Assembly (NCBI RefSeq): GCF_001027285.1
Contig: NZ_CP011509.1
Span: forward strand, 7,898,501 to 7,962,500
From: Archangium gephyra
GTDB taxonomy: Bacteria; Myxococcota; Myxococcia; Myxococcales; Myxococcaceae
DNA: 64,000 bases
Direction: 5' to 3'
Shown: piece after piece, positions 11,117 to 45,805 of the stretch
Layout of the letters: every line of letters begins with the position of its first letter
Position numbering within the stretch: position 1 is the stretch's first letter
The notes under the pieces: generated by a model
What the model was told of the DNA's origin: nothing
Database searches by the model: none
Seen by the model: only the letters and a program-made list of their open reading frames with translations
Translations under genes and position numbers: made by a program

Positions 11117-11317
11117 ATGCGCAAGGCGGCGGCGGGGGCGGTGGTCGGGATGTTCGTGGTGGGAGCGGGAATGATGACGCTGCTCGGCGCGGTGCTGGGC
11201 ACCTACGCGGAGGCGGCTTCGCTGGCGCTGGTGGGCGCGGGCCTGTTCGCGGGCAGCTCCGCACTCAGCGGTGGCAAGGAGACGGTGCCCGCGGCCGGCA
11301 TCGCCAAGGAGGCCTGA
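11117..11317 (+). CDS. Small hypothetical membrane protein
   Basis: This 66-residue protein starts at an ATG after GGAGTGGAAGGCGGCT. It is built of two hydrophobic helices (AAAGAVVGMFVVGAGMMTLL and ASLALVGAGLFAGSSAL) with a short basic start and a polar tail. A hairpin follows the stop. I do not recognise a family. It is divergent from exoA and may share the regulatory region. Confidence 0.55.
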   Translation: MRKAAAGAVVGMFVVGAGMMTLLGAVLGTYAEAASLALVGAGLFAGSSALSGGKETVPAAGIAKEA

Positions 11318-11339
11318 ACAAGAGGCCTGAAAAAGCTAC

Positions 11340-11359
11340 GGGTGCCGCTTCAGGCACCC
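11340..11359 (+). terminator. Hairpin after the small membrane gene
   Basis: The arms GGGTGCC (11340-11346) and GGCACCC (11353-11359) form a perfect 7-base stem with a 6-base loop, 22 bases after the stop. There is no T tract. Confidence 0.5.
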
Positions 11360-11376
11360 GGTGAAGTGGGAGGGGA

Positions 11377-11403
11377 GCCTGCTTCCCTGGTGGGGAGGCA
11401 GGC
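11377..11403 (-). terminator. Hairpin after the sigma-54 activator gene
   Basis: GCCTGCTTCCC (11377-11387) pairs with GGGAGGCAGGC (11393-11403), 11 base pairs with one G-T pair, right after the activator stop. With the neighbouring stem it insulates two converging genes. Confidence 0.5.
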
Positions 11404-11406
11404 GGC

Positions 11407-14178
<2,772 letters not shown>

Positions 14179-14217
14179 CGTCAGCTCTCTTTACATTCGT
14201 CGATGTGCCCGGATCGG

Positions 14218-14240
14218 TCACCCAGGTGTCGCACGGGTGA
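14218..14240. promoter_or_regulatory. Candidate enhancer dyad
   Basis: TCACCC and GGGTGA are separated by 11 bases, about 80-100 bases upstream of the predicted start of transcription of the lytic operon. This is a usual distance for an enhancer-binding protein site; binding is inferred. Confidence 0.45.
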
Positions 14241-14259
14241 GCGAATCATTCCAATCGAG

Positions 14260-14286
14260 AACCAGGAACACCTGTTTCCGCTGGTT
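14260..14286. promoter_or_regulatory. Second dyad upstream of the sigma-54 promoter
   Basis: AACCAG (14260-14265) and CTGGTT (14281-14286) flank a GGAA/TTCC-containing centre, directly upstream of the -24 element. It could be a second activator or repressor site. Confidence 0.4.
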
Positions 14287-14293
14287 TAGCCGA

Positions 14294-14309
14294 TGGCCCG
14301 GGGATTGCT
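14294..14309 (+). promoter_or_regulatory. Sigma-54 promoter (-24/-12)
   Basis: TGGCCCG-GGGA-TTGCT matches the consensus TGGCACG-N4-TTGCW with one mismatch, and the GG and GC are spaced exactly as required. Transcription would start near 14320, about 27 bases before the NlpC/P60 start codon. Confidence 0.75.
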
Positions 14310-14346
14310 CAATACATGGCGAAACCCCCAACCGGAGCAATCCCCG

Positions 14347-14871
14347 ATGCTGCCTTCCTTCCCGATGCGGTCCTTCCTCCTGCTGGCCACCTGCGCCGCG
14401 CTCTCCACGGGCTGCGGACAGGGCCTCGAGGAGCAGAGCCCCGCGCCCACCGCGGAGAACGTCCCCTACGTGTGGGACGAGTTCGGTGAGCTGAACTCGG
14501 AGCTGACGGGTACCCGCGCCGAGGTCGTCGACTTCGCCCGGACGTGGATCGGCACGCCGTATGTGCGCGGCGGCTGCAACCGCGAGGGCATCGACTGCTC
14601 GTGCTTCACCAAGCGGGTGTTCGGCCACTTCGACAAGTTCCTGCCGGATGACCCGGAGCTGCAGTGGAACTACGGCACGCGCGTGGACAAGGCGGATCTG
14701 CGCAAGGGTGACCTGGTGTTCTTCAAGGAGGGGGGCGCCAACTACATCACCCACGTCGGCATCTACGCGGGCAACGGCGACATCCTCCACGCCTCCACCT
14801 ACTGGGGGAAGGTGGTGGAGAAGCCCATGCAGTACGTCGACGGCTACTTCGGCGCGCGCTCGCTCTTCTAG
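14347..14871 (+). CDS. NlpC/P60-family lipoprotein peptidase
   Basis: This 174-residue lipoprotein has signal MRSFLLLATCAALSTGC preceded by six residues, then an NlpC/P60 domain. The catalytic Cys is in GIDCSCF (Cys84; the family usually has DCSGF, so the Gly is replaced by Cys) and the His is in THVGIY (about His136). The ATG at 14347 has GGAG nine bases upstream. Enzymes of this family cleave gamma-D-Glu-diaminopimelate bonds in peptidoglycan. It is the first gene of a run of secreted lytic enzymes behind the sigma-54 promoter. Confidence 0.87.
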   Translation: MLPSFPMRSFLLLATCAALSTGCGQGLEEQSPAPTAENVPYVWDEFGELNSELTGTRAEVVDFARTWIGTPYVRGGCNREGIDCSCFTKRVFGHFDKFLPDDPELQWNYGTRVDKADLRKGDLVFFKEGGANYITHVGIYAGNGDILHASTYWGKVVEKPMQYVDGYFGARSLF

Positions 14872-14900
14872 ACCCCCCACTTCCCACTCAGGAGACCCCC

Positions 14901-16223
14901 ATGAAGACCCGGATGATGCTGTGGGCCAGCGCCACCCTGCTGGCCGCGTGTGGAGAAGGTACGGCTGTGGACCCCGCTTCCCAGACGCTGGTGCGGGATG
15001 AAGTGATTGGCGTGTCCCTCCCCCTGCCGGCGCAGTGGAGCGTGAGGCGGGACGAGGTGCTGTTCGACACCCACGGTGTCTTCTTGAATGCCCCGACGAG
15101 CGACGAGGGCGTCGCGCAGACGGGACACGAGCGGGACGCGGTGGCGCGCATCGCGCTGGCGTACAAGGCCCGGCCGGACCAGCTCGAGGAGCTGGTGCGC
15201 ACCAAGCTGGCGGAGTACCAGGAGTTCCACCCCACCCGCACGGAAGTGACCCTGGCCGATGGCCGCACGGGCATCGCCATCACCGGCCTGCCGGGCACGC
15301 AGCCCTACTCCATCGTCTACACCGTTGATGGCGAGCGCGTGTATGAGATTGGACTCTGGTCGGACGAGCCGGGGCTGGATGAGCGCGCGAAGCAGGTGCT
15401 CGGCGGCCTCCGCTTCCAGGCCCCGACGAAGACGGTGCAGTCGCTGGGCCTGAAGACCGCGCGGGAGTCCACCTATGCCGAGCTCTCGGCCGAGCGCGAG
15501 CAGGCGGCCGCCGATCGCAAGGCGCTGGTCATGAAGGCGATCCTCGCGGGAGATCTCCCCCAGCAGCAGAAGTTCGAGGATCCGCCCGTGCGTGCGATGT
15601 CGTGTGGCTTCACGGCGCCCTCCACCCTGTACTGGCAGCTGCAGTGGGATTGGACGAACAAGTTCTACAGCGGCGCCCATTACGACATGAAGGCCAACCC
15701 GGGCTGGAGCGCCATGAGTGGCAATGGCGGCAGCTGGTGGGGCACGGGCTACCACACGCGCTTCTGCGAGACGAACTACGCCAACCAGCACTACGCCAAC
15801 GACTGGCCGGCGCAGGTCGGGGCCAACGCCTATGCGGCCTTCGGAGGCACGGTCGAGTGGACGGGCTGGGGCACGGATGGCTTCGCGACCCTGGGCCGGT
15901 ACGTGGTGGTGCGCAACAATGGCTACCGCAGCCTGACCGCGCACTTGAGCAGCATCGCCAGCGGCATGGCCTGGGGGACCGAGATCGACGGGTACTACAA
16001 GGTCATCGGCGAGGCCGGGAGCTCGGGCGGTGACTGGGCGCCCCACCTGCACGCCCGCGTCAGCTATGGCGAGTCGAAGACAGCCAATGGCCAGCCCTAC
16101 GGCGGTGAGACGGTCAAGCCGCTGCGCCTGCGCTGCTTCAACTGCAACAACCCGGATGTGTCGGTGGCCTCGGGTGGTGGCTACTACAACGATTTCTTCC
16201 ACGGCCGCTGGATGATGTACTGA
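14901..16223 (+). CDS. M23-like metallopeptidase lipoprotein
   Basis: This 440-residue protein has a lipobox signal (LLAACGEG). Residues about 30-200 form a region of unknown family, and the C-terminal half is LytM/M23-like with His297 and Asp301 in HYAND, TAHL, and the HLH pair at 382-384, consistent with the zinc-ligand pattern. Two cysteine pairs follow near the end (LRCFNCNN). The start has GGAG nine bases before the ATG and lies 29 bases after the preceding stop. It would cut peptide cross-links in peptidoglycan, either self or prey. Confidence 0.83.
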   Translation: MKTRMMLWASATLLAACGEGTAVDPASQTLVRDEVIGVSLPLPAQWSVRRDEVLFDTHGVFLNAPTSDEGVAQTGHERDAVARIALAYKARPDQLEELVRTKLAEYQEFHPTRTEVTLADGRTGIAITGLPGTQPYSIVYTVDGERVYEIGLWSDEPGLDERAKQVLGGLRFQAPTKTVQSLGLKTARESTYAELSAEREQAAADRKALVMKAILAGDLPQQQKFEDPPVRAMSCGFTAPSTLYWQLQWDWTNKFYSGAHYDMKANPGWSAMSGNGGSWWGTGYHTRFCETNYANQHYANDWPAQVGANAYAAFGGTVEWTGWGTDGFATLGRYVVVRNNGYRSLTAHLSSIASGMAWGTEIDGYYKVIGEAGSSGGDWAPHLHARVSYGESKTANGQPYGGETVKPLRLRCFNCNNPDVSVASGGGYYNDFFHGRWMMY

Positions 16224-16227
16224 GACC

Positions 16228-17148
16228 ATGACTTCCATTCCTTCACTTCGTCGCCTGCTATTGATTGGCACCCTCCCCCTGCTGTCCGCCTGCGGGGAGG
16301 AGGCCTCCCGCAGCTTCTCCACCCACAATGAGGAGGAGCTGGTGCGACTCATGAGCACCCTTCGCCCGGGAGACTCGCTGCGCTATCGCCAGGTGGGCGT
16401 CCTCATCCCCCCCGCGGGAGAAGGGGTCCATGTGGAAGCCGTGCTCGCGGACGGCAGCACGGTGGAGCTCCAGGTGAAGACGGCCGGGGATGGACGCGTC
16501 GCGCTCGTCCGGCACCCCGAGCCCGTCAAGGCCCTCGAGTCCACTGGCCCCACCGCCCTGAGCGCGTGCACCGAGGGGGACTACACCCTGCTCGGCTGGC
16601 AGTGGACGCAGGACTACCATTGGTACTTCAACGCCGACACGACGCCGGGCGAGCTCACCATCGCCGAGGCCGAGCAGGCCATCCGTGAAGCGACGGGCAA
16701 CATCACCAACGGCCGCAACGACTGCGGCTTGACGGATGCCATCAACGCCAGCCATCAGTACGAAGGCCGGACGAACACCAGTGCCAATCTCAGCGCCACG
16801 GGAGGGTGCACCGCCCGGGACGGCAAGAACGTAACGGGCTTCGGGGACCTGCCCTCGGGCGCCCTCGCGGTGACGTGCACCTGGTCCGACAGCTCGGGGC
16901 GCGCGGTGGAGAGTGACGCGCGCATCAACAAGGTCGAGCACACCTGGACGACGAGCGCCGAGAGCGCGAGCTGCTCCAACCGCTTCGGCCTGGAGGCGGT
17001 GATGACGCACGAGCGCGGCCACACCTTCGGCCTGGGCCACGTGGCCGCGGGCAGCCCGCTCACCATGCGCCCCGGCATCGCCCCCTGTGACGGTTCCGCC
17101 GCCACGCTGGGCCTGGGCGACGTGCGTGGGCTGCGGCAGCGGTACTGA
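16228..17148 (+). CDS. Metzincin-like zinc metalloprotease lipoprotein
   Basis: This 306-residue protein has a lipobox signal (LPLLSACGEE) and a classic extended zinc motif HERGHTFGLGH beginning at His261 (HExxHxxGxxH), followed by a Met-containing segment LTMRPGI that fits the Met-turn. Several paired cysteines suggest disulphides. It starts four bases after the preceding stop, so translation is coupled. It should be a secreted protein-degrading enzyme, in contrast to its wall-cutting neighbours. Confidence 0.82.
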   Translation: MTSIPSLRRLLLIGTLPLLSACGEEASRSFSTHNEEELVRLMSTLRPGDSLRYRQVGVLIPPAGEGVHVEAVLADGSTVELQVKTAGDGRVALVRHPEPVKALESTGPTALSACTEGDYTLLGWQWTQDYHWYFNADTTPGELTIAEAEQAIREATGNITNGRNDCGLTDAINASHQYEGRTNTSANLSATGGCTARDGKNVTGFGDLPSGALAVTCTWSDSSGRAVESDARINKVEHTWTTSAESASCSNRFGLEAVMTHERGHTFGLGHVAAGSPLTMRPGIAPCDGSAATLGLGDVRGLRQRY

Positions 17149-17229
17149 TTCCGAAGACAGACTGTCGTGTCACGGGCCGCCGGCTCTCCCCCGCGGCGGC
17201 CTTCCCCCAACACAACAAGGAACAAACAC

Positions 17230-17805
17230 ATGAAGAATGGTCATTCGCGGAAGCGTCTCTCGAAGCTGTCCATCGGTCACGTGGCGCTGCTCGGTCTGGG
17301 TGCGGCGGCCATGCTGAACGCCTGCGGAGCGGAGGCTCCGGCCGATGCGGCCAGGGCCGAGCAGGTCCAGGTCGAGAACGTCCGGATTGATGAGTCGGGG
17401 ATCACGGCGCTGGCGGGCGGCATGGTCCAGGCACAGGTCGAGGTCCAGGGCCCCTGGGTGGAGCCGCACGTGCAGGATTTCGCCAACGCGGTGTGCAACA
17501 GGTTCAATGCCTGCAGGCCTTCGACCTACGACGGACACCCGACCCGGGGCGCGTCCCTGGCGTTGGACATCCTGGTGTCCGGGCAGTGGGGCGATCCCGC
17601 CAATGAGGGCGATGGTCTGAACAAGGGCTGGGACGTGGCGCGCTACGCGTTGGCGGACCACGACGGCCGGTTCCGCGTGGACTACGTGATCTGGCAGGGG
17701 CGTATCAATTACAAGGACGGGACGGGCTGGCACAACTACCCGAACCAGGGCAGCGTCACCGGCAATCACCTGGACCACGTGCACGTCAGCTTCAAGCCGA
17801 TGTAA
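17230..17805 (+). CDS. ARB-07466-like cell wall hydrolase lipoprotein
   Basis: This 191-residue protein starts at the ATG after AAGGAACAAACAC. It has a basic then hydrophobic signal (IGHVALLGLGAAAMLNAC) and a C-terminal domain with DGHPTRGASLALDI, ARYAL, VDYVIWQGRI and NHLDHVHVSF. This matches the zinc-dependent ARB-07466 C-terminal domain, related to D-Ala-D-Ala carboxypeptidases and peptidoglycan hydrolases. It closes the lytic operon; a hairpin follows at 17821-17855. Confidence 0.8.
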   Translation: MKNGHSRKRLSKLSIGHVALLGLGAAAMLNACGAEAPADAARAEQVQVENVRIDESGITALAGGMVQAQVEVQGPWVEPHVQDFANAVCNRFNACRPSTYDGHPTRGASLALDILVSGQWGDPANEGDGLNKGWDVARYALADHDGRFRVDYVIWQGRINYKDGTGWHNYPNQGSVTGNHLDHVHVSFKPM

Positions 17806-17820
17806 CCCAAACACAAACAC

Positions 17821-17855
17821 CCGGGGGGAGTCCTCGTTCGAGCGGCTCCTCCCGG
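17821..17855 (+). terminator. Hairpin ending the lytic operon
   Basis: CCGGGGGGAG (17821-17830) pairs with CTCCTCCCGG (17846-17855), ten pairs with one G-T, and the loop holds an inner CTCG/CGAG stem. It lies 15 bases after the stop of the fourth lytic gene. Confidence 0.6.
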
Positions 17856-17911
17856 CTTCATGGACGGCCAGGTGCTCGCGGCCCTGCTCGCCCTTGCTGT
17901 GGAGATGATCG

Positions 17912-19549
17912 ATGAAGCGTCGCGGCGTGAGTCCAGGAAGAAGCTCGAACAGGCGGGCCGGCCAGTCCTACCGGGTGCTCGGCGGGGTGCTCTCCGCCGT
18001 GCTGGTGCTGGGAGGGTGTGCGGGCTCGGAGAACGACGGTCCAGGGCTGGCGGAGTCCGAGCAGGCGTTGACGTGCCCCGCGAGCGCGACCGATGTGAAC
18101 GCGGCGCGAGACCTTCTCCTCACCGACGTCTCGCTCGTGGACCATGCGCGGGCGAGGAGCTGGAGCGGCACCGCGAACAACGACTACACGGATGGAACGT
18201 TCCACTTCGGCCGGCTGCTGAACGACCTGCGCGGCCGCGACGGCAACCAGCAGAATCCCGAAGGGGGCGCGGACGTCACCTTCAACCCGTATGAGCTCTC
18301 TGAATACGTCCACCGGTGGCTGGACGAGTGGGAGACCGACGACCTCACCAACTGCGACCCGGTTCCGGCCCGGCCCGCCGTCAACACCCACATCCGCGGC
18401 CCCTGGCCCAAGATCGCCGGTCAGTACGACGTGTACACCACGAAGGACGGCCGCCACGTCACGCGCGAGCGGCTGGACATGAGGAACCCGCCGTTCCGGC
18501 TGATGGCGGTGGTGTTCCGCAACGACCTCGCGGACCTGACGCCGCCACGCGGCGATAGAGCCGCGAACGACCCGCAGCGCGACCCGCCCCAGGCCGGCGA
18601 GCTGCGCATCGTCTACGGGCTCGTCGACCCGGCGACCGGGGCGCCCAAGAACCTGACGGTGGCCTTCGAGTACAGCCTGCCAGCCCAGACCGAGAACGAC
18701 GTCACGATGTGGCACAAGCGGTGGCGCAACGAGGTCGACGGCACGACGATTGGCAGCACCGAGTGGCTGAACGGAGTCTCGCGGCTCGTCTGGGAGGTGA
18801 CGCGCAACAACGGCTCGCGCAACGCGACCAGCAGCCTGTATGCGGGCAACCCCTGCCTGGGCTGCGGACAGGCCCGGCCCCACGACAACAACCTGCACCA
18901 GCTCCGCACGAACGACTACAAGGTGCTGGGCGCGACCCAGGAGTTCCGCGAGTTCCGCGTGCCCCTCAAGCCGACGGCCGGGAACGCCGGCGGCGCGCCC
19001 AATCACTTCTACTTGAACATGACGTTCCGCAGGAAGTTCCAGAACACGGTCAAGCTGGCGAACTACTTCGACGCGTATTGCGAGCACATCCTGGCGGAGC
19101 ACCACAAGGTGCCCCAGGACTTCCCCCAGAAGCTGGGCGACACGAACGACTGCGCCGTGCTCGAGCCGAACTCCGTCCAGGCCGGCGTGGCATCCAATGA
19201 CTTCTCGCTCTGGTGGAACGCGCCGGTGACCGAGTACGCGGCATGTGGCAATGCCACCAAGAACGAGGTGCGGCACCGCTTCAGCCGCAATACGTGCAAT
19301 GGCTGCCATGGTGTCGAGATGGGATTCAGAACCGACACCGCGGCGAACAACTTCATGATCCGCCCGCGGGCCGAGGGCGTCGCGTCGACACTCTCGCCCT
19401 TCATCTCCCCGGGCACCTGGAGCGTGCAGGATCCCAAGGATCCGACCCTCACCCGCGACTTCACCGAGTTGCTGAGCCGGCGGACGAAGTACCGGAACGT
19501 GCTGTGCAACGGGTACACGCAACCCGCCTATCCGGCGGCCTGGCGCTGA
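17912..19549 (+). CDS. Large myxobacterial lipoprotein with CxxCH motif
   Basis: This 545-residue protein has an N-terminal signal (VLSAVLVLGGCAGS, lipobox Cys about 36) and a GGAG ribosome site. No family was recognised for most of its length. A single CNGCH at residues 462-466 is the c-type heme signature, and LGCG and paired cysteines occur earlier. It could be a heme-carrying surface lipoprotein, but one CxxCH alone is weak proof. It lies beyond the terminator of the lytic operon and probably has its own promoter. Confidence 0.65.
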   Translation: MKRRGVSPGRSSNRRAGQSYRVLGGVLSAVLVLGGCAGSENDGPGLAESEQALTCPASATDVNAARDLLLTDVSLVDHARARSWSGTANNDYTDGTFHFGRLLNDLRGRDGNQQNPEGGADVTFNPYELSEYVHRWLDEWETDDLTNCDPVPARPAVNTHIRGPWPKIAGQYDVYTTKDGRHVTRERLDMRNPPFRLMAVVFRNDLADLTPPRGDRAANDPQRDPPQAGELRIVYGLVDPATGAPKNLTVAFEYSLPAQTENDVTMWHKRWRNEVDGTTIGSTEWLNGVSRLVWEVTRNNGSRNATSSLYAGNPCLGCGQARPHDNNLHQLRTNDYKVLGATQEFREFRVPLKPTAGNAGGAPNHFYLNMTFRRKFQNTVKLANYFDAYCEHILAEHHKVPQDFPQKLGDTNDCAVLEPNSVQAGVASNDFSLWWNAPVTEYAACGNATKNEVRHRFSRNTCNGCHGVEMGFRTDTAANNFMIRPRAEGVASTLSPFISPGTWSVQDPKDPTLTRDFTELLSRRTKYRNVLCNGYTQPAYPAAWR

Positions 19550-19612
19550 CGTCACGCGCCAGGGCGGAGTGGCGCGGGTGAGCCACCTCGATTCAAACGC
19601 GGGAGGGAGCCC

Positions 19613-19675
19613 TCCGGGCGCGGTCTCGCCAGACTTGTCCAACAGTTGGACAACTTCGTGAAGAGCGCGCCCGGA
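19613..19675. terminator. Nested palindromes between convergent genes
   Basis: The outer arms TCCGGGCGCG (19613-19622) and CGCGCCCGGA (19666-19675) enclose a perfect 19-base palindrome TTGTCCAACAGTTGGACAA (19635-19653). It lies between two converging genes, so a bidirectional terminator is likely, although the inner palindrome also looks like a repressor operator. Confidence 0.5.
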
Positions 19676-19723
19676 AGGCGGACTGAATCCACCCCCGCCC
19701 TGAAAGGACTTTGTTCCGCCGGC

Positions 19724-20848
19724 TTAGAAGTTGGCCTGGTGGCAGAGGAAGTTGCCCTGCGTGAAGTAGAAGCCGGTCGAGACGGAGGTCGCTGATGAGG
19801 GGTGGCAGAGACTCACGGTGAGCTCGGCGCGCTCCCGGTTGGTCCCCGACACGATGTAGTTGCCCGAGGACATCATCAGCGTGGATGCGCTCAAGACCGT
19901 GCCATTGACCCGCACGTAGAAGAAGCCGTTCACCTCACCGGCGGTCATCGGGAAGGGCCTGCTGGAGTACGCGGAGAGGGCAATCTTCACGCGCTTGGGT
20001 GTCGTCGTCGTCCCGCAGTAGGACGTGTCCGTCACGGCGCTCACCAGCCGGGCGTTGTAGAGGATGGGTCCCGTGGTGCCGAGATCACCCTTGTTCGTGA
20101 AGTTCAGGTAGTTGTCGCAAATAGGGGCCGGGAGCGGCGTGCACTGACCCGTGCTGCAGAAGTGCGTGCCGTAGTCGCACGTCGACTGGCCCTCTCCCGA
20201 GCAGGGAGCACCGGTGCCGCCCCACCTCTGGCACTGTCCCGTCGCCGTCTCGCAAATCAGCCCCGAGGCACAGTCCGTATCCTTCGTGCACTTGGGCGTG
20301 CACACCTTGTCCGGGTTCGAGCACACCAGGTCAGAAGTCCCGCGGTCGATGTTGCACAGCGTGTCCGTGGAGCACTTGCACACGAGCCGGGTGTCGAAGC
20401 CGCTCAGCGCATCGCAGGTCTTCGCGGAGTCCGGACAGTCCGCGGCGCTCGCGCACGTCCGCACGCACACCTTCGACGTGGGATGGCAGAGCTCCGCCGC
20501 CAGACAGTTCGAGTCGTCCGTGCACGACAGGTTCCTGTCCACCCCACCATCCTCTCCACCCCCATCCACCCCACCACCTCCATCACTCCCCCCATCCTCC
20601 CCACCCCCATCTCGCCCCCCATCCACCCCACCATCACTTCCACCTCCATCTCGCCCCCCATCTTCCCCACCCCCATCACTTCCCCCATCCGCCCTGGCCA
20701 CACACCGGCCTGTCGCCTGCTCGCACTGCTGACCCGCGCCACAGTCCGCATCCTGTGCGCACGTATCGTCGGGGCCGATGTCGATGGGACAGCCCGCCAT
20801 CACCACACCCACCACGGCGAGCATCCACCCGATCTTCCAAAGCTTCAT
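19724..20848 (-). CDS. Cys-rich surface lipoprotein with Gly/Asp linker
   Basis: This 374-residue protein has lipobox VVMAGC (Cys20). It is followed by a short Cys-rich motif (DTCAQDADCGAGQQCE), about 50 residues built of DGG units with Ser, Glu, Arg or Val, a second Cys-rich region of several C-x-DxDC-x-C repeats, and a C-terminal beta-rich domain (about residues 240-374). The ATG has GGAGGGGGAG upstream. The layout resembles myxobacterial surface lipoproteins in which a flexible linker lifts a domain off the outer membrane. The function is unknown. Confidence 0.75.
   Translation of the reverse strand: MKLWKIGWMLAVVGVVMAGCPIDIGPDDTCAQDADCGAGQQCEQATGRCVARADGGSDGGGEDGGRDGGGSDGGVDGGRDGGGEDGGSDGGGGVDGGGEDGGVDRNLSCTDDSNCLAAELCHPTSKVCVRTCASAADCPDSAKTCDALSGFDTRLVCKCSTDTLCNIDRGTSDLVCSNPDKVCTPKCTKDTDCASGLICETATGQCQRWGGTGAPCSGEGQSTCDYGTHFCSTGQCTPLPAPICDNYLNFTNKGDLGTTGPILYNARLVSAVTDTSYCGTTTTPKRVKIALSAYSSRPFPMTAGEVNGFFYVRVNGTVLSASTLMMSSGNYIVSGTNRERAELTVSLCHPSSATSVSTGFYFTQGNFLCHQANF
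20536..20694 (-). repeat. Imperfect repeat encoding the DGG linker
   Basis: A C-rich run of units like CCACCATC and CCCCCATC on the plus strand encodes the Gly/Asp linker of the lipoprotein. It is coding sequence, not a CRISPR or an intergenic satellite, and could change length by slippage. Confidence 0.65.
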
Positions 20849-21052
20849 GCTGACTCCCCCTCCGAGGGATCGCGTACGGCGTTCGAGCCCCGCTGCTACC
20901 ACACTCGCCTCCTTGGAGAAGAGGCCGGGCGATACCGTACTTCTGCGTATGTCCTGGTTTAAGTGTCTTGCTATCATTGCCTGCTCACGGGAATGGCGCC
21001 TGTTCCAGCCCACCCGCGCGAAACGCCCACGTTGAAAACAGAGGGGGTACGG

Positions 21053-24000
21053 ATGAGACAGCCAGACGCATGGAGGGCAGCCACACGCTGCCTGGTGATG
21101 GGATTGTGGGTGCTGGCGGGTTGTGGCCAGGAGGACCTGCCCGCGGACACAGCGCCCTTACGGAGCAGCACGGCGGCGCTGGAGGAGTCCGGACCGGATC
21201 TGATCGTCACGGAGGTGCGGGGCCCGGCCAGTGTGAGTATCGGACACGACTTCACGGCCACCGTGAAGGTGTGCAACCAGGGCACCGCCACGAGCTCCAA
21301 CTGGCCGCGGGTGGAGCTGTTCCTGTCCATGGATGCCTCGTTGACGCTCCCGGACCCGAACGCCCCACCGGACTCGCCGGTGGACCAGGTGTCGCTCGGG
21401 TTCACGGACCTGTACCTGTCCCTGCAGCCCGGGCAGTGCGAGCGCCTGAGCCTGTCCGTCAACGCTTCCCTGCCACCCGCGGCGCAGGACGAGGGTGCGT
21501 ACTACCTGGCGGCCGCCATCGACACGACCCAGGCCGAGCAGGAGTCGCGCGAGGACAACAACATCCTCGTGGGCGGCTTGATGGGTGTGGGCTCCCGGCC
21601 GGACCTCGTGGTGACCGGGGTGAGCGCGCCGCCCAGCACGAGGAATGGAGACGCCTTCTTCGCCGCCGTGACGGTGTGCAACCAGGGCACGGCCTCCACC
21701 TCGGCGGGCTCCTCCTATCCTTACAACGGCTCCCGGGTGGAGCTGTTCCTGTCCACGGATGCCGAGCTGACGCCGCCAGAGCCGGGCAGCCCGTCTCCGA
21801 GCACCCCCACGGACCAGGTGTCCATCGGGTATGCGGCGCTGGAGACGCTCCAACCGGGGCAGTGTGTGAAGAAGGCCGTGCCCGCCACCACCACCCTGCC
21901 GCCCGCTGCGCAGGCAGACGGTGCGTACTACCTGGTGGCCGCCGTCGACACGACGCACCTGGAGCAGGAGCTGCGGGAGGACAACAACGTCCACGTGAGC
22001 GGCCTGTTGGGCGTGGGCAATCGGCCAGACCTCGTGGTGACCGAGGTGCGGGGCCCGGCCAACGTCAGGCCCTGGCAGGGCTTCACGGCCTCGGTGAAGG
22101 TGTGCAACCAGGGCACGGCCTCCACCAGTGGCTCCACTCAAGCGCGGGTGGATCTGTTCCTGTTGGCGGACGCGACGCTCTCGATGCCGGTCCCCGGTGA
22201 ACCCATGGATCCGATGCCCATCGAATCCGTGGAGCTGGAACAGCCCCTGTCCCCCGGGCAGTGCGTGACGAAGAGCCTTCGCGCTTCCGCCGCCCCGCCA
22301 TCCGGTGGCTCGGGTGATGGCGCGTACTACCTGGCGGCCGCCGTCGACACGGACCAGGTCGAGCAGGAATTGCGTGAGGACAACAACGTCCGCGTGGGCG
22401 GCTTGATGGGCGTGGGCCAGGGGCCGGATCTCGTGGTGACCGAGGTGAAGGCCCCCTCCAATGTCTGGCTGGGCCAGGACTTCATCGCCGCGGTGAAGGT
22501 GTGCAACCAGGGCACCTCCGCGACCAACAGCTACTACCCCCGCGCACGCCTCGAGCTGTACCTGTCCATGGACACCGAGCTGTCGCTGCCGGACCCCTAC
22601 ATGCCCTCGGGCACGCCCACGGACCAGCACCTCATCGCGGAACTGGAGCTGGACACGCTGTACGAGGGCCAGTGCGTGACGAAGAACGTGCCCGCCCACG
22701 CCTGGACGCCGCAAGCAGCGCAGGGCGAGGGTGCGTACTACCTGGCGGCCGCCATCGACACGAACCAGGTCGAGCAGGAGCTGCGCGAGGACAACAACGT
22801 CCTCGTGGGCGATCTGATGGGCGTGGGCCACCGAGCCGACCTCGTGGTGACCGGGCTGAGCGCGCCGCCCAGCGCGTGGCACGGCCAGCCCTTCGAGGCC
22901 TCGGTGCGGGTGTGCAACCAGGGCACCGACTCCACCCAGGGCTCCTCCTACGGCAGGCCGCGAGTGGAGCTGTTCCTGTCCACGGAGGCCGATCCGATCC
23001 TGCCCTCCCCGGGCATGCCGGTGGATGACCCACGGGAGATCGGATTCGTGGAGCTGGAGCAGGCCCTGGAGCCGGGGCAGTGCGTGACGGAGCGCGTGCT
23101 CGCCTCCGCGCACCCGCCCCCCACGATGCTGAATTACGGGGCGTACTACCTGGTGGCCGCCGTCGACACGGAGCACGACGTGGAGGAGTTGCGCGAGGAC
23201 AACAACGTCTTCCTGGGTGGGCGGATGGGCGTGGGTTACCGCTCGGACCTCGTGGTGACCGAGCTGAGTGGCCCGGCCAGTCTGCGGCCCCACCGTGACT
23301 TCCTGGCCACGGCGAAGGTGTGCAACCAGGGCACCAGCTCCTCCAGCGGCTCCGCACGGCTCGGGCTCATCCTGTCGATGGATGCCGAGCTGACGCCGCC
23401 GGGCCCCTCCTCTCCGGACATGCTGGAGGACCAGGTCACTATCGGACACGTGGACCTGTACCAGTCCCTGCAGCCGGGGCAGTGCGTGACGAAGCGCGTG
23501 CCCGGCTACGCCATGCCGCCGCCCGCGGCGCAAGGGTATGACGGCGCGTACTACCTCGCGGCCGCCATCGACACGGAGCATGACGACGTCGAGCTCCGGG
23601 AGGACAACAACGTCTTCGTGGGCGGCCTGGTGGGCGTGGGCGACCGGCCGGACCTCGTGGTGACCGAGCTGCGCGGCCCGGCGAGCCTGTCCCCCGGCCA
23701 GGACTTCCTCGCCTCGGTGAAGGTGTGCAACCAGGGCACCACCTCCGCCAACGGCGGCTACTCCAGCATGCGCCTCGAGCTGTTCCTGTCCATGGACAGC
23801 GAGCTGACGCCGCCGGGCCCGTCCATGCCCTCTTCGGGTATGCCGGAGGACCAGATCTCCATCGGCCATGTGGAGCTGGACACGCTGTATGAGGGCCAGT
23901 GCGTGACGAAGAGCGTGGAGGCCTTCGCCGCCCTGCCGCCCGCGGCACCGGGAGACGGCGCGTACTACCTGGCCGCCGCCGTCGACTCGACCCGCGCCGC

Positions 24001-25333
24001 GCTGGAGCTGCGGGAGGACAACAACGTGTTCGTGAGCGGTCTGGTGGGCGTGGGCCACCTCTCCGACTTCGTGGTGACCGAGCTGAGCGTGCCGGCCAAC
24101 CTGCGCTACAGCCAGGACTTCACGGCCAGCGTGAAGGTGTGCAACCAGGGCACGACCACCCCCAGTGGTGGCTCCCATCCCTCCTACGGCACTCCGCGGG
24201 TGGAGCTGTTCCTGTCGATGGACACCGAGCTGACGCTGCCGGGTCCGTACTCGCCCTACCCGAGTGGCTCGAACGACGACCAGCGGTCCATCGGCTGGGT
24301 GGACCTGGACCAGCCCATGTACCCGGGCCAGTGCGTGACGCAGAGCATTCAAGCCTCGGCCTGGCTGCCGCAAGCGGCGCGGGGAGAGGGCACGTACTAC
24401 CTGGCGGCCGCCGTCGACACGAACCAGGCCGCGCCGGAACTGCGCGAGGACAACAACGTCCGAGTGAGCGGCCCGGTGGGAGTGGGCGACCGGCCGGACC
24501 TCGTGGTGACCGGAGTGAGCGCGCCGGCCAACCTCGAACCGGGCCAGGACTTCACGGCCTCGGTGGAGGTGTGCAACCAGGGCACCAGCGCCACCTCCTC
24601 CTCGTCGCGCCTCGACCTGTTCCTGTCGATGGACACCGAGCTGACCTTGCCGGACCCGGCCTTCCCCTCCCCGGGCACGCCCATGGACCAGGCCACCGCC
24701 GGGTTCGTGGAGCTCAACCCGCCCCTGGCTCCCGGGCAGTGCGTGACGAAGAGCGTACCGGCCACCGCCACGCGGCCACCGGACGCCCAGGGAGATGGCG
24801 CGTTCCACCTGATCGCCGCCATCGACACGACCCGGACCGAGCAGGAGCTGCGCGAGGACAACAACCTCCACGTGGGCGGCCTGGTGGGCGTGGGTAACCG
24901 GCCGGACCTCGTGGTGACCGGAGTGGACGCGCCGGCCAATCTCGAGCCCGGGCAGTCCTTCACGGCCCTGGTGGAGGTGTGCAACCAGGGCACCGCGCCC
25001 ATCGACGGCGGCTCCTACTTCGGGCCTCGGGTGGAGCTGTTCTTGTCGATGGACACCGAGCTGACGCTGCGGGACCCGTTCATGCCCTCTCCGGGTACGC
25101 CCATGGACCAGGCCTCCCTCGGGTACGTGGAGCTGAACCAGTCCCTGTATCCGGGGCAGTGCGTGACGGAGAGCGTGGAGGCCTTCGCCTCGCTGCCGCC
25201 CGCGGCGGAGGGAGACGGCGTGTACTACCTGGTGGCCGCCGTCGACTCGTACCAGCACCAGCAGGAGCTGCGGGAGGACAACAACGTCCACGTGGGCGGG
25301 CTGATCCACGTGGGCGCCTTGCCCGCACCTTGA
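21053..25333 (+). CDS. Secreted lipoprotein with ten CARDB domains
   Basis: This 1426-residue protein has a lipobox signal (LWVLAGCGQ, Cys24) and then ten tandem CARDB-like adhesion domains of about 135-145 residues. Each begins PDLVVT (or a close variant) and carries a VCNQGT motif, an ELFLSMD-like strand, PGQC or EGQC, and an AYYLAAAVDT...LREDNN ending. The Cys of VCNQGT and the Cys of GQC recur in every domain, which suggests one disulphide per domain. The ATG at 21053 is chosen because the signal peptide starts there. It is likely a long surface fibre or adhesin; the ligand is unknown. Confidence 0.85.
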   Translation: MRQPDAWRAATRCLVMGLWVLAGCGQEDLPADTAPLRSSTAALEESGPDLIVTEVRGPASVSIGHDFTATVKVCNQGTATSSNWPRVELFLSMDASLTLPDPNAPPDSPVDQVSLGFTDLYLSLQPGQCERLSLSVNASLPPAAQDEGAYYLAAAIDTTQAEQESREDNNILVGGLMGVGSRPDLVVTGVSAPPSTRNGDAFFAAVTVCNQGTASTSAGSSYPYNGSRVELFLSTDAELTPPEPGSPSPSTPTDQVSIGYAALETLQPGQCVKKAVPATTTLPPAAQADGAYYLVAAVDTTHLEQELREDNNVHVSGLLGVGNRPDLVVTEVRGPANVRPWQGFTASVKVCNQGTASTSGSTQARVDLFLLADATLSMPVPGEPMDPMPIESVELEQPLSPGQCVTKSLRASAAPPSGGSGDGAYYLAAAVDTDQVEQELREDNNVRVGGLMGVGQGPDLVVTEVKAPSNVWLGQDFIAAVKVCNQGTSATNSYYPRARLELYLSMDTELSLPDPYMPSGTPTDQHLIAELELDTLYEGQCVTKNVPAHAWTPQAAQGEGAYYLAAAIDTNQVEQELREDNNVLVGDLMGVGHRADLVVTGLSAPPSAWHGQPFEASVRVCNQGTDSTQGSSYGRPRVELFLSTEADPILPSPGMPVDDPREIGFVELEQALEPGQCVTERVLASAHPPPTMLNYGAYYLVAAVDTEHDVEELREDNNVFLGGRMGVGYRSDLVVTELSGPASLRPHRDFLATAKVCNQGTSSSSGSARLGLILSMDAELTPPGPSSPDMLEDQVTIGHVDLYQSLQPGQCVTKRVPGYAMPPPAAQGYDGAYYLAAAIDTEHDDVELREDNNVFVGGLVGVGDRPDLVVTELRGPASLSPGQDFLASVKVCNQGTTSANGGYSSMRLELFLSMDSELTPPGPSMPSSGMPEDQISIGHVELDTLYEGQCVTKSVEAFAALPPAAPGDGAYYLAAAVDSTRAALELREDNNVFVSGLVGVGHLSDFVVTELSVPANLRYSQDFTASVKVCNQGTTTPSGGSHPSYGTPRVELFLSMDTELTLPGPYSPYPSGSNDDQRSIGWVDLDQPMYPGQCVTQSIQASAWLPQAARGEGTYYLAAAVDTNQAAPELREDNNVRVSGPVGVGDRPDLVVTGVSAPANLEPGQDFTASVEVCNQGTSATSSSSRLDLFLSMDTELTLPDPAFPSPGTPMDQATAGFVELNPPLAPGQCVTKSVPATATRPPDAQGDGAFHLIAAIDTTRTEQELREDNNLHVGGLVGVGNRPDLVVTGVDAPANLEPGQSFTALVEVCNQGTAPIDGGSYFGPRVELFLSMDTELTLRDPFMPSPGTPMDQASLGYVELNQSLYPGQCVTESVEAFASLPPAAEGDGVYYLVAAVDSYQHQQELREDNNVHVGGLIHVGALPAP
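21194..25318 (+). repeat. Ten tandem CARDB-coding repeats
   Basis: Units of roughly 400-420 bases each start near CCGGACCTCGTGGTGACC. First and second unit starts (21194 and 21599) are 405 bases apart. The high similarity makes this a likely site of recombination between repeats. Confidence 0.8.
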
Positions 25334-25379
25334 AGTCCGCCCCACTTCGGTAGGCCCACGGGCAGGCATGCGAGCGGCT

Positions 25380-25420
25380 CGCCAGGAGAGGTGTCGAGGA
25401 AGGCACACCTTCTCCTGGCG
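25380..25420 (+). terminator. Long hairpin after the CARDB gene
   Basis: CGCCAGGAGAGGTGT (25380-25394) pairs with ACACCTTCTCCTGGCG (25405-25420), 15 pairs with one bulged base, 46 bases after the stop. There is no T tract. Confidence 0.6.
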
Positions 25421-25471
25421 CATGACCCTGCACACCCTTCACGGCATCCCCATTCCGCTTGGGAGGAGCCA

Positions 25472-45441: not shown

Positions 45442-45805
45442 GCGGATGGAATATCCACAACTGGAGCATCGACGCAGTTGAACCCCCGTCCCACGGGTCC
45501 CCTGGACGTCCAACAGCGCACGCTCCGGCCCCGCCAGGCTGCCCGCTCGTTCAGTGCCCGACACCTCCCTCCTACCTGGGGGCAGGAGGTGGGCTTCCGT
45601 ACGTTCAGGTAGGGCCCGAAAAAACCTCCAAACCGGGCCCTGTAAATACGACAGGGTTCCGGCCTAAGCACGAAGGGCTCGCGATGCAACCACCTGCTTT
45701 CACTGAGGAACGTTGCCGGATGGCCGCTGGCATCCCCGTTGCTTTTGGCAATGGGCACGAAGTCGCAACGCAAAGCTCAACGTCCTCCATCCCCCGAGAG
45801 ACCCC
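45442..45805. promoter_or_regulatory. Divergent spacer upstream of rpoH
   Basis: This 364-base non-coding region lies between the histidine kinase (minus) and rpoH (plus). It contains a perfect inverted repeat AGGGCCCG (45611-45618) and CGGGCCCT (45634-45641) around an A-rich 15-base spacer, about 165 bases before the rpoH start. No confident -35/-10 pair was seen. Confidence 0.45.

Follow-up and report, generated by a model that had tools for sequence, protein, structure and literature searches.

What controls the genes of a wall-cutting enzyme set, which are dangerous to their owner when expressed at the wrong time, and how did such a set reach its present place in the genome of Archangium gephyra? 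The question is raised by a 64,000-nucleotide stretch (the window; G000:C1:7898501-7962500) of this 12.49-Mb, single-contig genome, where a sigma-54 activator gene diverges from a run of four lipoprotein genes. We favor, with moderate confidence, the answer that activator and operon form a lineage-specific islet of ~8.4 kb with a dedicated sigma-54 activator, its target lipoprotein operon, and a sigma-54 start near position 14320. The pairing of activator and promoter, the start site, the membrane location of the products, and their use against other bacteria are what we infer from the following features.

11323-19724 (~8.4 kb; left edge possibly up to 11345): lineage-specific block, missing in five of five sisters
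11407-14178, minus strand: sigma-54 activator (bacterial enhancer-binding protein, bEBP), 923 amino acids (aa); Pfam 9.1e-67; GAFTGA at residue 667
14294-14309, plus strand: -24/-12 element TGGCCCGGGGATTGCT, exact match to TGGCNCG-N4-TTGCW; start at ~14320 predicted from the spacing
14347-14871, plus strand: NlpC/P60 lipoprotein, 174 aa; Pfam 7.7e-22; DCS at 83, HVGIY at 136
14901-16223, plus strand: M23 lipoprotein, 440 aa; Pfam 6.4e-9; HxxxD at 297, HLH at 382
16228-17148, plus strand: matrixin-like (M10) lipoprotein, 306 aa; Pfam 2.9e-6; HExxHxxGxxH at 261
17230-17805, plus strand: fourth lipoprotein, 191 aa; residues 76-188 match PDB 9flh; HLDHVH at 180

The main evidence that activator and operon belong together is their joint presence and joint absence, which supports a single unit. 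Comparisons covered five sister genomes of the genus and a family set of 96 genomes, the genome itself included. The left flank aligned at 83-94% with all five sisters, and these alignments ended at 11317-11322. In one sister (G004) the alignment restarted at 19725 after ~72 bases, in a second (G002) it restarted at 21018, and in the remaining three at 25359-25445; the right side of this spot also varies among sisters. As delimited by these alignments, the block contains the activator, the promoter, the four-gene operon, and a gene for a 545-aa lipoprotein. It appears to be acquired or otherwise lineage-specific, as a gain takes fewer events than a loss in all sisters, although this is not proof.

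The activator gene and the NlpC/P60 gene are separated by a 168-base spacer. Within it, the near-consensus -24/-12 element of the preliminary description proved to be an exact strict match, with GG-N10-GC in place. The ~27 bases given there as the distance to the gene run hold for the interval between the predicted start and the ATG, whereas the element itself ends 37 nt before the ATG. On both strands of the whole genome the strict pattern has 26 matches, compared to 15 for its reversed form, and because so few occur in 12.49 Mb, the chance of a correct-strand match in the spacer is ~1e-4 to 2e-4 by our own arithmetic. The element is therefore a sound sigma-54 promoter as far as sequence goes and unlikely to be a chance match.

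What this type of promoter precedes elsewhere in the genome was assessed at 106 of the 185 matches to a looser pattern, TGGC-N7-TTGCW (all 26 strict sites and 80 of the 159 others). Gene prediction placed 44 of the 106 sites outside coding sequence, with a downstream gene present for 39. Signal-peptide genes followed 23 of the 39 intergenic sites and 13 of the 17 strict ones, compared to a background of 58 out of 173 genes (Fisher test, 0.003 and 7e-4, respectively) that was scored by the same rule and includes the window's own genes. This rule is crude: it misses at least three likely cases among the 39 (L206, L222, and L295) as well as the M23 gene of the window, and it wrongly flags the activator; in addition, four sites precede paralogs of one lipoprotein. 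As both shares are above background, the sigma-54 sites of this genome lean to exported proteins.

The divergent gene is a sigma-54 activator with an intact GAFTGA loop, as had been proposed. Its predicted layout comprises a TPR-like N-terminus (the best TPR model being just below cut-off), the AAA+ domain, and a weak Fis-like helix-turn-helix (HTH_8 at 871-904; E 0.011, 15.8 bits compared to a 22-bit cut-off). Profile searches gave no receiver domain match in this protein, which together with GAFTGA and the TPR-like N-terminus makes a two-component regulator improbable.

Open reading frames, Pfam matches, and lipobox starts agree on the proposed run of four lipoprotein genes with NlpC/P60, M23, and metzincin-like members, separated by 29, 4, and 81 bases. 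The first protein carries the NlpC/P60 domain with its Cys-His motifs (the motif check covering the Cys and the first His), the second HxxxD and HxH as in M23 peptidases, and the third the HExxHxxGxxH of M10 metzincins. Peptidase motifs are hence intact in the first three genes and plausible in the fourth. The name ARB-07466-like, previously given to the fourth gene, could not be confirmed; instead, its product matches PDB 9flh, a “LysM domain-containing protein” (3.2e-7), and the two share a DHVHVS motif. Pfam gave no match for it, and NCBIfam only a far-below-cut-off match to an unrelated aminopeptidase; by our own reading of HLDHVH, it is a possible zinc peptidase. The term “secreted” was too strong, since all four starts, read by eye, end in a lipobox (STGC, LAAC, LSAC, and LNAC in gene order), which predicts membrane-anchored rather than free proteins. 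Two hairpins accompany the operon.

17174-17202, plus strand: hairpin between genes 3 and 4, candidate attenuator; the whole gap folds at z -1.4
17821-17855, plus strand: hairpin after gene 4; -28.3 kcal/mol, z -4.5; no T-run

The hairpin that had been said to end the operon is thus present and strong, but as the T-run is absent we do not call it a terminator.

Taken together, a signal acting through the TPR-like N-terminus would switch the activator on; once bound in the 168-base spacer, the activator would cause sigma-54 polymerase to open at 14294-14309. The transcript would start near 14320 with a 27-nt leader. NlpC/P60, M23, and the possible zinc peptidase would then cut peptidoglycan peptides, and the matrixin-type enzyme would cut protein. 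The operon may be inducible and may serve predation or possibly sporulation; a core role in sporulation is disfavored, as none of the five sisters has the block.

A further layer of control may lie at the first gene, where the earlier reading of the sequence had missed a 12/12 inverted repeat.

14299-14310, plus strand: left arm CGGGGATTGCTC of a perfect 12-nt inverted repeat; contains the -12 box
14335-14346, plus strand: right arm GAGCAATCCCCG; includes the last three bases of GGAG (14334-14337) and runs on to the base directly preceding the ATG

The arms are 24 bases apart, and the predicted sigma-54 start at ~14320 falls in the loop. Repeats of at least 12 nt arose in 3 of 4000 dinucleotide shuffles of the spacer, and the stem folds at -23.9 kcal/mol (z -4.9). 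According to folding, opening the ribosome site costs 14.6-15.6 kcal/mol for RNAs that start at or before 14299 (~15.5 for an upstream start) and 5.8-6.8 kcal/mol for starts at 14310-14325 (6.4 from the predicted sigma-54 start); eight other genes of the window span 2.3-9.6 kcal/mol, a range that includes the short leader. The change from long to short leader is 8.9 kcal/mol, compared to a mean of 0.67 (sd 2.10) among 120 pseudo-leaders of 60 control genes, one of which reached 9. The repeat would thus hide the ribosome site of the first gene in any transcript started upstream, and only sigma-54-started RNA would be well translated. Such an RNA lock is a computed hypothesis at this locus. In its full form, the sigma-54 promoter would double as one strand of the lock, stray transcription would stay silent, the lysozyme principle known from phage T4 would have been rebuilt around a bacterial alternative sigma factor, and weaker versions of 6-9 bp would occur at other myxobacterial promoters; we regard this as doubtful.

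Several results speak against the lock. GGAG has an unpaired probability of 0.07 in the short RNA compared to 0.25 in the long one, though the whole ribosome site is nonetheless easier to open in the short RNA. A simple scan for an upstream sigma-70 promoter that could give rise to a long transcript came up empty, although such a scan has little power at high GC content. One of the 32 sigma-54 sites that could be compared by folding (L209) changes by 9.4 kcal/mol compared to 8.9 here, and long leaders at these 32 sites were no more closed than controls (P 0.36); seven of the 39 sites had been omitted for leader length or short upstream sequence. In a shuffled-leader test, from which two of the 39 sites were omitted by leader length, P was below 0.05 at 4 of 37 sites: L220 (the present promoter), L285, L222, and L218.

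Across the 96 family genomes, TGGC-N7-TTGCTC-N(10-40)-GAGCAA had 45 matches, compared to 18 for the reversed pattern, an excess that is inflated as GAG belongs to most ribosome sites and orthologs recur. After five coding-looking loci of the 45 were dropped and ortholog groups were made by eye, outward extension of the stem past its 6-bp core was above permutation as long as the present case was included (24 groups, P 0.0085); for the 23 groups left after its removal it was not, with P 0.17 outward and 0.07 for both sides. The longest stem between -12 box and ribosome site is the present one with 12 bp, the next ones having 9. Given the folding comparison and the null extension result without the present case, the lock appears to be at most an occasional device in these promoters, and as a general sigma-54 rule it was rejected for now.

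It is about an even bet that the repeat has no role in translational control and is instead an operator or a by-product, such as a short copy made by template switching. It is a single case seen post hoc, similar promoters lack it, stems elsewhere do not extend beyond permutation, and the upstream promoter that a lock would guard against was not found. Conversely, its rarity in shuffles, the exact stop of one arm at the start codon with the -12 box in the other, and the size of the predicted opening-energy effect relative to controls speak against this reading. If the lock is true, expression is made dependent on the transcription start point itself, a design that is easy to test and to reuse.

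Stems of this kind were also seen in four genomes of a single genus at the sigma-54-like promoter of a small protein of 37 aa (L340, L344, L347, and L358), where the -12 box and ribosome site are linked by 8-10 bp. In the L340, L347, and L344 orthologs, GAGCAA begins 9-12 nt before the likely start codon, and one pair is G-C, A-T, and G-T. A ATGAGCAA start-codon region is complementary to the -12 box over 9 nt in L222 and 7 nt in L339.

The enzymes may remodel the bacterium's own wall during sporulation, germination, or growth rather than attack others, which we consider possible but the less likely use. MepS has a housekeeping role. For the NlpC protein, the top NCBIfam model was a MepS-type murein endopeptidase, below cut-off (73.5 compared to 186 bits), and in the PDB search MepS was among the best matches after 7cfl; furthermore, PMC12316311 connects sigma-54 with genes of the wall in Myxococcia, and M. 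xanthus reportedly does not survive without sigma-54 (PMC12316311). This fits poorly with a block missing in all five sister species and with an NlpC gene that, unlike a core developmental gene, has no close relative within the family: matches occurred in 9 of the 96 genomes (own included), the others being 28-39% identical over the domain with a best E of 4.3e-6. Across the phylum, 25 of 195 genomes (own included) had matches at 1e-10, the best of which were 39-47% identical across the domain.

The sole full-length relative of the M23 gene is a paralog in its own genome (53%; L069, 5678-7093), upstream of which no -24/-12 element was obvious by eye. The M10 gene has a single 43% relative, standing alone in genome G049 with no TGGC-N7-TTGCW match in 19.5 kb, and the remaining matches are weak. 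The fourth gene has short 48-52% matches only, in four other genomes of the 145 searched. Searches of family and phylum genomes found no conserved operon elsewhere.

The conservation of gene order and promoter that had been expected in relatives was accordingly not borne out. Of the 95 other family genomes, eight, which belong to a single genus, carry a full-length activator ortholog (~64%), and here the evidence turns against a dedicated pair: the operon genes were absent from the 10-15 kb around each of the eight, where the orthologs adjoin other genes, so that in these eight the activator must serve different targets. Likewise, the promoter was present in no relative examined, which makes footprinting impossible. 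A CATTCC block occurs in seven of the eight ortholog upstream regions and, in opposite orientation, in the spacer here.

These orthologs without the operon bear on the proposal that the sigma-54 promoter is served by another activator of the genome and that the divergent gene controls something else. The sigma-54 activation domain has 65 matches in the genome, some of them weak, and other promoters in it share upstream sites of the sort expected when a single activator serves genes far apart. We nevertheless hold this proposal to be unlikely, as divergent gene and operon sit in a single block missing in five of five sisters, and none of three shared upstream motifs from other promoters was present when the spacer was checked for them. 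The latter fits a dedicated activator but is no proof. The spacer contains two dyads.

14214-14223/14235-14244: imperfect dyad TCGGTCACCC-N11-GGGTGAGCGA, 9/10; centered at ~-91 from the predicted start
14223-14229/14268-14274: dyad CAGGTGT-N38-ACACCTG, 7/7; chance-level

Both dyads of the preliminary description are thus present, but they are no stronger than in a shuffled spacer, where a perfect repeat of at least 7 arises in 1511 of 4000 dinucleotide shuffles. The dyad at 14214-14244 is a candidate activator site, at chance level when taken alone. Among the 39 intergenic promoter regions, both halves of either dyad were found in this spacer only, as a dedicated activator would predict. GTCACCC and GGGTGAGC are scattered (4 and 3 of the 39 regions, respectively) and co-occur here alone; an activator motif common to other promoters was rejected. 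A genome-wide search for further copies of the spacer returned only matches up to ~30 bases (E 0.16 or worse).

That the -24/-12 match is due to chance and the operon is transcribed from a different promoter is highly improbable: most loose matches in the genome are indeed chance, given 185 compared to 138 for the reversed pattern, but the present match is strict, in the correct place and on the correct strand, and adjoins an activator gene.

Upstream motifs were also noted at other sigma-54-like promoters. L218 (C1:6530509), L228 (C1:12225973), and L248 (C1:1196043) all have GGTGTACC-type repeats at ~-104, -85, and -58, ahead of exported-protein genes, and look like the regulon of a single activator. 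TGACACGTCA occurs upstream of sites ahead of exported proteins at L206, L215, and L244 (reverse complement in L244), L206 and L244 being two sides of a single divergent spacer. A GGAGCATnnATG[CT]TCC-type palindrome lies ~70 bases upstream of sites L205 and L226 and is partial in L223.

The remaining gene of the islet follows the operon.

17912-19549, plus strand: 545-aa lipoprotein gene of the same islet; no Pfam or NCBIfam match

A weaker -24/-12-like site, TGGACGGCCAGGTGCT at 17861-17876, lies 35 bases ahead of it. The region 11320-25360 is a variable spot in the genus, with contents unlike between sisters; many repeat alignments of G002 to the protein gene at 20963-25333 suggest an enlarged relative there. 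Elsewhere in the window, TGGCATCCCCGTTGCT at 45728-45743 is a loose -24/-12 match 62 bases ahead of gene 45806, which we read as sigma-factor-like.

The arrangement can be compared to known systems. According to PMC9765219, the Myxococcus xanthus sigma-54 consensus is TGGCACG-N4-TTGC(T/A), and the Nla28 network described there is similar to the present case in consensus and upstream activator sites. Nla28 is paired with the histidine kinase Nla28S, whereas the present activator has no receiver match and diverges from a lytic operon within a block that is lineage-specific. Sigma-54 has been linked to the cell exterior (PMC3162934), and enrichment of lytic murein transglycosylases is reported for Myxococcia (PMC12316311), which fits the lean to exported proteins seen here. 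The targets are similar, being envelope and lytic enzymes; the present case differs in that four peptidase genes form one operon that comes with an activator of its own. NlpC/P60 lipoproteins such as MepS/Spr resemble the first protein in Cys/His motifs, domain, and short lipoprotein form, while its score below the family cut-off and its operon context set it apart from MepS/Spr.

The closest parallel to the lock is gene e (lysozyme) of phage T4, where, according to PMC3014915, the ribosome site is buried in the long early transcripts and the late promoter is located within the DNA that encodes the 5' arm of the stem; the short transcripts lack this arm and are translated. Related cases appear in PMC2988022. 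Both loci encode a lytic enzyme, and here, too, the ribosome site is predicted to pair with sequence upstream of the start, as judged from sequence, folding, and the predicted start. Unlike the T4 case, the present one is chromosomal, uses sigma-54 instead of a phage late promoter, and is predicted from sequence and folding. A literature search, a weak negative, found no earlier description of a sigma-54-linked ribosome-site lock. Even without the lock, the islet would be a good test case for how predatory bacteria gain an enzyme set with its own switch. The RNA lock is a possible new variation, and the islet otherwise falls among known sigma-54 activator-operon arrangements.

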